From Nitrososphaerota archaeon (lineage in GTDB: Archaea; Thermoproteota; Nitrososphaeria; Nitrososphaerales; Gagatemarchaeaceae): a stretch of 64,000 nt of DNA. The position numbers and the translations under genes were made by a program. Positions 13,549-50,900 of the stretch are shown piece by piece. The stretch's first letter is position 1. The number at the start of each line of letters is the position of its first letter. The stretch covers positions 1 through 64,000 of the forward strand of contig DAHVLJ010000004.1 in the NCBI GenBank assembly GCA_027320425.1, read 5' to 3'. A model generated the notes under the pieces. That model made no database searches. It saw only the letters and a program-made list of their open reading frames with translations, and was not told the origin of the DNA.

Positions 13549-14568
13549 GTGGTATCAAAGAAGGAAGTGCTGTCAAAACCGGTCGCGACGATAGAGGTCG
13601 GAAGCAAGAGCATATCGGGGCTGCTCGACGAGATGTCCCAGACGGGGTTTCAGGGGAAGAAGCTCGGCGAGGTGGCTAAGATCTGGAGCGAGATGGCGAA
13701 AGCGAAGGGCCTCACTGTCTTCCTTGGGCTGACCGGGTCTCTGAGCACCACAGGGCAGTGGAAGATCATCAGGTGGCTCGTAGAGAAGAGGTACGTAGAC
13801 GTCGTGGTGAGCACCGGAGCCAACATCTCTGAGGACATACTGGAGGCGCTCGGTTACCACTACTACCAGGGGACATGGCTGGCGGATGACGAAGCGCTCC
13901 TGAAGATGAAGATAGACAGGTTCTACGACGTGTACGCAGACGAGATGGAGTACAGGAAGCTGGAAAGGACGATCTACGCGTTCGCGGACACCCTGGACCC
14001 GAAGAAGGTATACTCCACGAGGGAGTTCCTCTACCAGTTCGGGGCATTCCTGAACAAGAAGGGGATCGACAGCATCGTCGCGGCCGCGCACAGGGCGAAG
14101 GTCCCGATGTACTCCCCCGGCCTCATAGACAGCGGATACGGGGTCGCGCTGAGCCTATTGAGGCGCGAGAAGGGCAAGATGATCAGGCTGGACCAGACGA
14201 AGGACATGGAAGAGCTCGCCCAGATCGCGGAGAAGACGAAGAGGACGGGCGTGGTCTACCTCGGCGGAGGGGTCCCGAAGGACACGATCCAGCTGTCGAC
14301 CATAATCAAGTCGCTCTCGAAGGGAGGAGAGGAAGAGACCCCCCACGAGTTCGCCATCCAGATCACCGCAGACAGCCCGCAGTGGGGAGGCCTGTCAGGG
14401 TGCACGCTTGAAGAGGCGATCAGCTGGGGAAAGATAAAGTCGGACGCGAAGAAGGCGACCCTCTACGCCGACATCACGCTGGCGCTGCCCATCGTCGCCC
14501 ACGCCCTGAGCGAGAAGGCGAAGGTCAGGAGCTATCCGCCAGACCTGTCCTGGGTCTTCAGCAGCTAG
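13549..14568 (+). CDS. dys: Deoxyhypusine synthase
   Basis: FLGLTGSLSTTGQWKIIRWLVEKRYVDVVVSTGANISEDI; EEAISWGKIKSDAKKATLYADITLALPIVAHAL with the conserved active-site Lys region. Confidence 0.92.
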   Translation: MVSKKEVLSKPVATIEVGSKSISGLLDEMSQTGFQGKKLGEVAKIWSEMAKAKGLTVFLGLTGSLSTTGQWKIIRWLVEKRYVDVVVSTGANISEDILEALGYHYYQGTWLADDEALLKMKIDRFYDVYADEMEYRKLERTIYAFADTLDPKKVYSTREFLYQFGAFLNKKGIDSIVAAAHRAKVPMYSPGLIDSGYGVALSLLRREKGKMIRLDQTKDMEELAQIAEKTKRTGVVYLGGGVPKDTIQLSTIIKSLSKGGEEETPHEFAIQITADSPQWGGLSGCTLEEAISWGKIKSDAKKATLYADITLALPIVAHALSEKAKVRSYPPDLSWVFSS

Positions 14569-46713: not shown

Positions 46714-46922
46714 GCCGTCCGAGGCTCGTAAGCGATTACTTGGAGGACCTACAGAAGAACCTGACGAACAGAGACCCCCAGGTGAAGGAGGGCCTGGAGC
46801 TCTATCTCGGCCTATGGAACAAAGCGGTGGAGAAGGGGATAGTGAGCCGTACGGACGACGTCGACCATGCCCTTGCGAAGCTGGAGGAAAAGGGAGGATT
46901 GGTCAAGGCAGCGGAAGGCTAG
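46710..46922 (+). CDS. Small hypothetical protein
   Basis: 70 aa, ATGA-type overlap with upstream gene; SDYLEDLQKNLTNRDPQVKEGLELYLGLWNKAVEKGIV. Confidence 0.55.
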   Translation: MSRPRLVSDYLEDLQKNLTNRDPQVKEGLELYLGLWNKAVEKGIVSRTDDVDHALAKLEEKGGLVKAAEG

Positions 46923-47668
46923 CGGGGAGCCTCTCCCCCGTCCAGAGCCACCACCTGACCGGTCATGAAACTCGACTCGTCAGAAGCGAGGAACACCGCG
47001 AGCGCCGCCGCCTCCGAGGGTTTGCCGAACCTCCCCAGCGGGATCGCCGACCTGTAACCTTCGGCCTGTTTCGCATCCAGCCAGTCTACCCACGTGGTAG
47101 ACATCGAACCAAAAGCCATGCAGTTGACCCGGATGCGCGGAGCGAGCATCTTGGCGAGCATCCTGGTCATGGATATCACGGCTCCCTTGGCCGAAGCGTA
47201 GACCAGCCCGTCTGTGTCTCCCACCAAGGCCGGAGTGGACGCGACGTTGACCACCGAAGACCCGCGCTTCATCAGCCGGGCGGCACCCTGCGTGCAAAGG
47301 AACGTCCCGAACGTGTCCACGCTGAAGACCCGCTGCCACATGTCGAGGGTCGTCTTCTCGAGGGGGAGGTTCCACATCTTCCTGTCAGCGAGTCCGGCGA
47401 CGTTCACGAGTATGTCAAGGCCGCCCAGCTCGCTCCCTATCTCGCGGAACATCCCTTTCACGCTCTCGGGGTCGGATACGTCGGCGTGCACGACGATCGC
47501 CCTTCCTCCCGACCTTCTGATTGAAGCGAGGACCGGCTCACGGTGCGACCCTGCGGAGCGGTGGTTGACCACCACAGTGGCTCCTTCCCTTGAGAATCTC
47601 TTCGCTATCTCAGCGCCGATGCCCTGCGAAGAACCGGTCACCAGGGCTCGCTTGCCCTTCAGCCTCAA
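46919..47668 (-). CDS. Short-chain dehydrogenase/reductase
   Basis: KRALVTGSSQGIGAEIAKRFSREGATVVVNHRS; VYASAKGAVISMTRMLAKML. Confidence 0.9.
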   Translation of the reverse strand: MRLKGKRALVTGSSQGIGAEIAKRFSREGATVVVNHRSAGSHREPVLASIRRSGGRAIVVHADVSDPESVKGMFREIGSELGGLDILVNVAGLADRKMWNLPLEKTTLDMWQRVFSVDTFGTFLCTQGAARLMKRGSSVVNVASTPALVGDTDGLVYASAKGAVISMTRMLAKMLAPRIRVNCMAFGSMSTTWVDWLDAKQAEGYRSAIPLGRFGKPSEAAALAVFLASDESSFMTGQVVALDGGEAPR

Positions 47669-47709
47669 ACGGTGTTCCGGCCACTGTTTCGGCTCTTAAG
47701 CGTTGGTAG

Positions 47710-48222
47710 CTACGGACGGGGGGCTCTGTCCCGGGCGGTCGACCCAGCCGAGTATTGCTTCAGGAACCTGATGTTGAAGAGCGAAGCCTTGGCCGAGTTC
47801 CTTACCATTTCGTCAGAGTCTGACAGCGCCTCTGTCAACACGTGCTCGGAGTCCGCGCTCCCGACCGAGCCGAGCGCTGCGGCAGACTCGTGTCTTACGA
47901 TGGGGTCCTTGTCGTTTATGACCGCGTCTGCAAGCGCGCGGTTGCCTTCGGCGAGCCCGATCTGCCCGAGAGAGAAGGCTGCCTCATGCCGTACTAGCGG
48001 GTCAGGGTCGTTGTGGAGCACGTCCGCGAGAGTCGAGACCGCCTTGTGCCCTCCGACTTCGGCGAGGATGCACACCGCGTGCACTCGCAGGACCAGGCTC
48101 GGCTCTTCCTTGAGCACCTTGATGAAATATGACTCGTCCTTCTTCTCCCATGCCTCTTCCATCCCCTTCATGACCTTCAAGGCGTAGGCTTCGTCGTCGA
48201 CCACCGTCGTGGTGTACATCAT
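47710..48222 (-). CDS. HEAT-repeat protein with tandem HE motifs (deoxyhypusine hydroxylase-like)
   Basis: LVRHEAAFSLGQIGLAEGNRALADAVINDKDPIVRHESAAALGSVGSADSEHVLTEALSDSDEMVRNSAKASL. Confidence 0.72.
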   Translation of the reverse strand: MMYTTTVVDDEAYALKVMKGMEEAWEKKDESYFIKVLKEEPSLVLRVHAVCILAEVGGHKAVSTLADVLHNDPDPLVRHEAAFSLGQIGLAEGNRALADAVINDKDPIVRHESAAALGSVGSADSEHVLTEALSDSDEMVRNSAKASLFNIRFLKQYSAGSTARDRAPRP

Positions 48223-48272
48223 CGTACAGCCAGCCTCTTAGGGCCTATAAACGAAGCGCAGTGAGGAGGCGC

Positions 48273-49292
48273 TCAGGGCAACAGCAGGATCTTCCCCTGC
48301 ACTTCGCGGGACTCGATGATTTCGTGCGCTTCCTTTGCCGAGCTGAGAGGCAGCTTCCTGAAGATCGATGGACTCAGGCGGCCGGTCTTTGCCAACTGCA
48401 GCACGGCTTTGAGGTCTTCGCTGGTCTGGCCATAGGCACCCAGAATCTCCAATTCGTCCTGGTACACGCGGCGGACGTCGACCTCTGACTTCGGCCCCGA
48501 CGTGAGGCCGAGCACTACCATCCTCCCTCCCCTTGCCAGGCAGTCGATGCTCGCCGTCCAAGTGTCACCCCCTACGTGGTCGAAGACGACCGAAGCGCCG
48601 AGCCCTTCAGTGATAGAGCGGACCTGTTCCACGAAGTCACGGGAACGGGAGTCCACCACGTAGTCTGCGCCGAGAGCCTTCACAAAATCTCCCTTCCTTG
48701 CGTCGCCTACGGCTGCTATGACTTTGGCCCCTCGGTGCTTGGCCACCTGGACCGCGGCATGCCCAAGGCCTCCCGCGGCGCCCCACACAAGGACCGTGTC
48801 CTGCTCCCCAACCGAGGCCTTGGATACGAGGGCGTTCCATACGGTCGCGAAGTTCACCGGGAGGGCTGCGGCGACCTCGGCGTCGACTCCATCGAGCGGC
48901 AGGAGGCTCGCGGCTGGTACTCTAACCAGTTCAGCGTACCCCCCGTCGGTCGCGACCCCGACGAACCCTCTATTGACGCAGAGGTTCGGCCTGCCGCGAC
49001 GACAGTAGATGCAAGTTCCGTCGCTTAGGATCGGTCTTACCAAGACCTTCGTCCCCTTCTCGGGCCCTTCCGCGCCCGGACCCAACGACACGACCTCGCC
49101 GGCGATGTCCGTGCCGAGAATGTGGGGGAGCGTCGTCTTGTATCTACCGCCTCTGGCCCAGACGTCGATCCTGTTTACTCCGCACGCGATAACTCTGACC
49201 AGGGCTTCCCCTTCCACAGGCTTCGGCTCGGGAATATCGTCCTCCACAAGGACGTCTGGTCCGCCCGTACTGTGATACCTTGCAGCTTTCAA
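48273..49292 (-). CDS. Zinc-type alcohol dehydrogenase / quinone oxidoreductase family
   Basis: MDR fold: LPHILGTDIAGEVVSLGPG; CIYCRRGRPNLCVN; VLVWGAAGGLGHAAVQVAKHRGAKVIA. Confidence 0.9.
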   Translation of the reverse strand: MKAARYHSTGGPDVLVEDDIPEPKPVEGEALVRVIACGVNRIDVWARGGRYKTTLPHILGTDIAGEVVSLGPGAEGPEKGTKVLVRPILSDGTCIYCRRGRPNLCVNRGFVGVATDGGYAELVRVPAASLLPLDGVDAEVAAALPVNFATVWNALVSKASVGEQDTVLVWGAAGGLGHAAVQVAKHRGAKVIAAVGDARKGDFVKALGADYVVDSRSRDFVEQVRSITEGLGASVVFDHVGGDTWTASIDCLARGGRMVVLGLTSGPKSEVDVRRVYQDELEILGAYGQTSEDLKAVLQLAKTGRLSPSIFRKLPLSSAKEAHEIIESREVQGKILLLP

Positions 49293-49325
49293 ACTCTGTG
49301 GGTCAGACGAACGGAATACTTAGGG

Positions 49326-50900
49326 CTACGCGTGGGACGCGGCATCGCGCTTAGGCGGCAAGACGAGGCTCCATACTGCCACGATCGCCAGGTTGACCGC
49401 CAGCGCTATCAGACCGATGTAGAGGATACCGAAAGGCGAGGGGAGGGCATAGGTCGAATAGTGCCAGATTGAGAAGTTGTTCTTCAGTTCCATCAGATAG
49501 ACGCCGACTACCTCGCCTACGAGCAACCCCGTGATGAGTGAATGCTTGTTCAACCTGCTGGTGAAGAGCCCCAGGAATACGGCGGGAAGTGTCTGGACGA
49601 TCATGATGCCGCCGAAGAGCTGCAGCTGGATGGCGTACGTCGACACGACTACGAAGACGAACCCGAGCGCGATGAACTTGAACACCACGGAAGCCCATTT
49701 CGAAAGGGTGGTTTCCCCCTGAGGGGTAATGTTCGGCCTGAACTCCTTCACGATGTTCCTAGTGAGCAGGTTGGCCTGGGCTATGGCCATGATGGCTGCG
49801 GGCACAAGACCACCAATGAAGACGCCAAGCAGGGCAACCCCTGCGAACCAGCTCGGTAGCGTGGTCAGTATCAAAGCAGGGACGACGAGCACTCCCTGTG
49901 TGACACCAGTGCCCGACAACGGATAACCATGGAGGAAAGACATCGCCGCGCTGCTGCCGTAGACGAGGACCCCGAACATCGCGAGGACACCCAGCCCCAG
50001 ACCATAGAAAGGCAGCAGGGAAGTGCTTTTCCTGACCTTCTCTGGATCCTGAGCGCTAAGGACGCCGTTCACCGCGTGCGGGTAGAGATAGAGCGCCAGG
50101 GCGCTGATCAGGAAGGTGCTCCAGTATGCGTTGGTAAGAGTGACCGGCAGCGTCGGCAGGACTGCGATCGTATGCTGAGTTCCCGTGTTGTAAGGAGAAA
50201 GCGTCTTCGAAGCTGCTGAGAACGCCCCCCCGAACCCGCCAGAAGACGCGATGACAGCCAGAACTGCGATAACTCCGAGGAAGATGAGCAGGTCCTTCAT
50301 CACAGCGGTGAGCGTCGCTCCCCTGAGACCGCTGGTGTAAGTGAAAGCGGCGAGGACTACGAAAGCTAGCACCAGCGCGACCTCTGAGATCGTCGTCACG
50401 TCCCCGACCCCGTTCAACATCGCCGCCAAGACCGCCTGCATCCCAACAATCTGTAGGGCGATGTACGGAAGTTCGGCTATTATTCCGACTATGGCCACCA
50501 ACATGGCGAGCGTCCTGCTGTTGAAGGTGCCCTTCACGAAATCGGCAGTGGTGATGTATCCTTTCTCGTGGGACACCTTCCATAGCTTGGGCATCACCAC
50601 GATGGCTACCCCGAAGGTAAGCGCGACGTACGGGACTGCGAAGAAGTAGAAAGCTCCCGACCCAGGGACGCCGAAGATGCCTGCGTATACCCCAGATGGC
50701 ACAGAGATGAAAGTGTAGGCAGTGTACAGGTCTGCCCCCACCAAGAACCAGACCAAGACGGTCCCTAGCCGTCTCCCAGCCAGCGCCCACTCCCCGAGGT
50801 CGCTCATGTCGCCCCGCCTCCATCTGCCTCCCCAGAAGCCGAGGAATACGAAGACCACGAACAGGGCCAAGAACGCGACGATGCCTTCGATGGCTAGCAT
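49326..50900 (-). CDS. Sodium:solute symporter (SSS family)
   Basis: About 13 TM segments; LGEWALAGRRLGTVLVWFLVGADLYTAYTFISVPSGVYA. Confidence 0.9.
   Translation of the reverse strand: MLAIEGIVAFLALFVVFVFLGFWGGRWRRGDMSDLGEWALAGRRLGTVLVWFLVGADLYTAYTFISVPSGVYAGIFGVPGSGAFYFFAVPYVALTFGVAIVVMPKLWKVSHEKGYITTADFVKGTFNSRTLAMLVAIVGIIAELPYIALQIVGMQAVLAAMLNGVGDVTTISEVALVLAFVVLAAFTYTSGLRGATLTAVMKDLLIFLGVIAVLAVIASSGGFGGAFSAASKTLSPYNTGTQHTIAVLPTLPVTLTNAYWSTFLISALALYLYPHAVNGVLSAQDPEKVRKSTSLLPFYGLGLGVLAMFGVLVYGSSAAMSFLHGYPLSGTGVTQGVLVVPALILTTLPSWFAGVALLGVFIGGLVPAAIMAIAQANLLTRNIVKEFRPNITPQGETTLSKWASVVFKFIALGFVFVVVSTYAIQLQLFGGIMIVQTLPAVFLGLFTSRLNKHSLITGLLVGEVVGVYLMELKNNFSIWHYSTYALPSPFGILYIGLIALAVNLAIVAVWSLVLPPKRDAASHA

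Follow-up and report, generated by a model that had tools for sequence, protein, structure and literature searches.

The stretch of DNA analysed here (the window) comprises 64,000 nucleotides of a contig from a Nitrososphaerota archaeon (DAHVLJ010000004.1) and carries, among other genes, one that encodes a small HEAT-repeat protein, hereafter P0001 (Table 1). This protein represents a family of half-size HEAT proteins with two His-Glu (HE) motifs, designated family A; a second, paralogous half-size family with the same kind of motifs is designated family B. The gene is part of a same-strand cluster (46919–50900) composed of a transporter-like protein with no Pfam match, a zinc alcohol dehydrogenase, P0001 itself and a short-chain dehydrogenase, an order that is kept solely in close relatives. 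Translation of P0001 may start at either of two codons (M1 or M2). An open reading frame on the opposite strand (47672–48187, +) has counterparts in relatives, yet it mirrors a conserved coding strand and is not regarded as a gene. The window also contains a deoxyhypusine synthase (DHS), as the preliminary description of this DNA had stated; it lies about 33 kb from P0001, so the two genes are not linked.

Table 1. Features of the window that are relevant to P0001
Feature	Position	Strand	Basis or remarks
Deoxyhypusine synthase (DHS)	13549..14568	+	PF01916, E = 1.1e-93
Short-chain dehydrogenase	46919..47668	-	PF13561/PF00106; 41 bp downstream of P0001; context only
P0001, family A half-size HE/HE HEAT protein, 170 aa	47710..48222	-	ORF and translation, PF13646, AlphaFold2 model
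C-terminal tail of P0001	47713-47724	-	
Second HE motif, H111-E112 in IVRHESAAALG	codons 47892-47887	-	Aligned with H89-E90 and also H240-E241 of human DOHH (alignment to DOHH halves)
First HE motif, H79-E80 in LVRHEAAFSLGQ	codons 47988-47983	-	Aligned with H56-E57 and also H207-E208 of human DOHH (alignment to DOHH halves)
Zinc-type alcohol dehydrogenase	48273..49292	-	PF00107/PF08240; 50 bp upstream of P0001; context only

The preliminary description had recognized at this locus a half-size HEAT protein with two HE motifs 32 residues apart, and this is what the gene encodes. P0001 matches the HEAT family PF13646 (1.8e-19), its two HE pairs are separated by 32 residues and the AlphaFold2 model of the monomer is confident, with nine helices and a mean pLDDT of 89. 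The HE residues, whose loss from orthologues had been named beforehand as an argument against a DOHH candidate, are invariant: both motifs occur in 67/67 members of an earlier set of family A and in 76/76 distinct unmasked sequences of the family, and they are unchanged in 16 near relatives found in GTDB genomes (archaeal MAGs except for one record labelled as a bacterium). Across the 67 sequences the residues H79, E80, G86, Q87, H111 and E112 do not vary. The search of plasmids returned no homologues.

The closest characterized counterpart of P0001 is deoxyhypusine hydroxylase (DOHH), and the human sequence used for comparison was verified position by position against PDB 4d4z (residues 1–289). 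Each arm of the human enzyme contributes three residues that anchor the two irons (H56, H89, and E90; H207, H240, and E241), while binding of the deoxyhypusine side chain falls to E57, E90, E208, E241 and a pair of glycines, roles that were established by mutagenesis and structure (PMC9117371); the two arms form a symmetrical dyad (PMC8153317). The spacing of 33 residues that the preliminary description had given for human DOHH is correct for both H56/H89 and H207/H240. In family A the equivalents of the iron ligands of one arm (H79, H111, E112) are invariant, as are those of the substrate residues E57 and G63, or E208 and G214 in the other arm (E80, G86). The glycine of the LGQ motif is G63 in the verified sequence, where it matches G214 of the other arm; it is printed as G65 in PMC9117371. 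Both P0001 and the known enzymes (human DOHH, 4d4z; yeast Lia1) are built of HEAT repeats and place their HE pairs in the middle two repeats of an arm, with a spacing of 32 vs. 33 residues. The testable features of the active-site half of P0001 all match DOHH. On the other hand, DOHH has two arms of four HEAT repeats each in about 300 residues and four HE motifs per chain, whereas P0001 has one arm in about 170 residues and two motifs, and would reach four only as a dimer. It also lacks the linker and has an N-terminal helix of its own and a conserved C-terminal tail. With a single arm and two HE motifs per chain P0001 falls outside the membership definition of DOHH.

The similarity extends beyond the motifs. 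A profile that contained only the human DOHH halves gave 49–80 bits with 26/26 family A rows, 17–50 bits with family B and at most 28.7 bits with generic HEAT proteins, and P0001 is colinear with human DOHH across four repeats (60 bits). When the HE residues were masked all family A rows still scored above every generic archaeal HEAT protein, which most of family B did not. Among natural proteins in the PDB, DOHH is the best match to family A by sequence, and it is also the best natural match to the predicted fold of P0001 (TM-score 0.71 normalized by query length), at rank 32 behind designed HEAT proteins. In a maximum likelihood tree the two archaeal families and both halves of DOHH group together, apart from the generic HEAT proteins (support 90/98), and the two human halves join as sisters (100/98); once the HE residues were masked and four long rows dropped, the same split persisted but was weak (48/85). 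As this tree includes DOHH from human only, has long branches and is arbitrarily rooted, the kinship that it suggests between DOHH and the two archaeal families is supportive but not decisive. The resemblance to DOHH claimed in the preliminary description is thus specific, given this split and the fact that family A outscores all 26 generic HEAT proteins.

The best explanation of these data is that P0001 is a homodimeric, half-size DOHH-like di-iron hydroxylase acting on aIF5A, a reading for which the chances are about even. Taken by parts, it is quite probable that P0001 is a DOHH-like metal enzyme, and that the predicted enzyme acts on aIF5A could go either way. Each chain would correspond to a single arm of the DOHH fold, a HEAT stack with the HE pairs of its central two repeats on one face, in which H79, H111 and E112 would bind one iron and E80 together with G86 would face the substrate. 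Since one family A chain carries exactly the residue set of one arm, a self-facing dimer would rebuild the DOHH site; this one-arm architecture suits a dimer that reproduces the DOHH dyad, although the step to a working dimer is conjectural. Two P0001 chains (a homodimer, in the genome of the window) may thus oppose each other like the arms of the eukaryotic enzyme and form a di-iron center that would activate O2 and hydroxylate the deoxyhypusine side chain placed on aIF5A by DHS, the presumed substrate. That P0001 may work like DOHH is in keeping with the conservation, the repeat-by-repeat match, the fold class, the distribution of the family and the presence of DHS and aIF5A genes; the metal, the dimer, the O2 chemistry and the substrate are inferred.

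To map the distribution of family A, 150 genomes from the class and 250 from the phylum were searched with a profile, and one clear family emerged. It occurs in 108/113 genomes of the order (E < 1e-30), in 4/4 genomes of one sister family and in 6 genomes of two families outside the class (counted from tables), and it was found nowhere in the rest of the class among the 150 genomes sampled. The heme-copper oxidase subunit COX1 is present in 43/45 family A-positive vs. 48/205 family A-negative genomes of the phylum (counted from tables), an association that amounts to about three independent clades; the two positive genomes with no COX1 are 54 and 81% complete, and some COX1-positive groups have no family A. 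This co-occurrence is counted in favor of a hydroxylase because an O2-using enzyme needs O2. The preliminary description had also proposed co-occurrence with DHS and aIF5A as a check. DHS is indeed found in 45/45 family A-positive genomes, and the genome of the window encodes an aIF5A with the modification loop KPGKHGSAK; however, DHS is near-universal (243/250 genomes of the phylum sample), so that its co-occurrence with family A says little.

These same data leave some room for a DOHH-like di-metal HEAT oxygenase with a substrate other than aIF5A, such as the side chain of a different protein or some small molecule specific to aerobic Nitrososphaeria. This alternative, which we consider rather unlikely, shares the evidence for a metal site with the aIF5A reading and agrees with the fact that family A tracks aerobic clades, that nearly all genomes without it have DHS and that no DHS, aIF5A or other hypusine-pathway genes adjoin family A genes in their neighborhoods; family B likewise shows a diversification of the HE/HE module. 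However, E80 and G86, the equivalents of residues that in DOHH contact the substrate (E57, G63), are invariant as well, and the nearest characterized relative is dedicated to eIF5A (PMC8153317).

Another possibility is that P0001 is a non-catalytic HEAT scaffold whose HE pairs are structural or bind proteins, perhaps with a structural metal. Its placement in Pfam and NCBIfam, in generic HEAT families only, would be in line with such a role, and a best match to the HEAT scaffolds of the phycobilisome (PBS) lyase type had been named beforehand as a point against a DOHH-like enzyme. P0001 shares with the PBS-lyase HEAT proteins (NblB, CpcE/CpcF) the HEAT_PBS repeat consensus, and falls well below their curated NCBIfam cut-offs (43.1 vs. 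300 bits for NblB, 19.6 vs. 330 for CpcE, and 19.3 vs. 220 for CpcF). The generic placement does hold, but human DOHH is just as generic in Pfam, where it matches only HEAT_2, HEAT_PBS, and HEAT, and therefore this observation does not discriminate in either direction. Designed HEAT proteins (alphaReps) head both the fold and the sequence searches with family A, and an alphaRep fragment reached 38 bits in its best domain with the profile of DOHH halves, which indicates that part of the similarity of family A is the common HEAT consensus; these proteins consist of designed consensus repeats, and their aligned stretches have no HE pairs. An HE pair separated by 28–40 residues occurs in 0/26 other HEAT proteins of Thermoproteota, a control set made up of an ~830-aa family, a third small HEAT family and further proteins (it contains several orthologues, and one gene is represented twice). 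Compared with its presence in 76/76 family A sequences, this makes the paired motif a trait of the family and not a general property of HEAT repeats, and the HE pair of P0001 is more than a chance repeat. A generic HEAT artefact as the full explanation is ruled out by these controls, which family A outscores even when HE is masked, and a non-catalytic scaffold is improbable given that HE pairs with the spacing of DOHH, absent from the other archaeal HEAT proteins sampled, are invariant in both families A and B. The third small HEAT family (~180–208 aa; loci L171–L173, L183, L184, L188, and L189) also belongs to Nitrososphaerales and has GE, GY/GF and SC/AC in place of HE at comparable repeat positions.

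Family B (loci L091–L104, e.g., L093:312-809, +) likewise occurs in Nitrososphaerales. Its members have about 165 residues, carry two HE motifs 32 residues apart in 30/30 distinct sequences and form a separate clade in the tree (100/100); in repeat 1 they show SxRWDxVW where family A has RxRA. A search of the PDB with the family B profile retrieved human DOHH first (4.6e-23), with both arms matched separately and ahead of every designed HEAT protein. The hhalign comparison leaves little doubt that the two archaeal families are related (probability 99.7); they have the same HE pair, and family B is patchy, being present in 35/113 genomes of the order (counted from tables). It is very improbable, however, that the working enzyme is an A/B heterodimer with one arm from each family, and that family A forms homodimers solely where family B is missing, as the genome of the window (54% complete) yielded no family B member, most family A-positive genomes lack it, and one genome (G115) has family B with no detected family A.

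The homodimeric DOHH-like reading of P0001 would bear on a known gap: hypusine is present in some archaea, and yet archaeal genomes are stated in published work to have no known DOHH orthologue (PMC5178350, PMC6105217). The archaea with reported hypusine include Sulfolobus, Acidianus, Pyrodictium, and Thermoproteus (PMC5178350). Families A and B are both absent from the genomes of the phylum sample that appear to be Sulfolobaceae-like (family f30), judged from their many oxidase genes, and the named control genome of Sulfolobus acidocaldarius has no HEAT_2 match; family A cannot therefore be the general DOHH of archaea. Of the proposal that P0001 is an archaeal deoxyhypusine hydroxylase, what stands is a DOHH-like candidate that in the phylum sample occurs in Nitrososphaeria and only two families besides. 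Our literature search retrieved nothing on hypusine in Nitrosopumilus or Nitrososphaeria, nor on DOHH in Thaumarchaeota. It is conceivable, though somewhat short of an even chance, that aerobic Nitrososphaeria make hypusine by means of a homodimeric half-size DOHH which keeps the form that preceded duplication and fusion into the two-armed eukaryotic enzyme. Family A would then count as the first archaeal DOHH homologue, and Sulfolobus-type archaea would use an unrelated enzyme. The two arms of the eukaryotic enzyme resemble an internal duplication, and family A would also offer a possible example of its state before that duplication. An invariant and near-universal half-size relative of DOHH in ammonia-oxidizing archaea is in any case a concrete gene to test, with the prediction that the aIF5A of Nitrosopumilus carries hypusine and not deoxyhypusine.

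Some further features of these genomes and of the family are worth recording. Two DHS-family genes are present in all family A-positive genomes but the incomplete genome of the window; within one taxonomic family (f25) the positive genomes have two such genes and some of the negative ones none or one, and elsewhere many negative genomes also have two. The neighborhood was discarded as a functional clue, with no hypusine genes among the conserved neighbors: in Nitrosopumilaceae (loci L077, L078, L081, L084, and L086) family A is convergent to a NurA-HerA-Mre11-Rad50-like operon, named from sequence only. The C-terminal tail of family A is always one of two types, (L/K/M)TGG in 58/76 distinct sequences and APRP in 18/76, and is preceded by a stretch that is variable in the family and predicted with low confidence.
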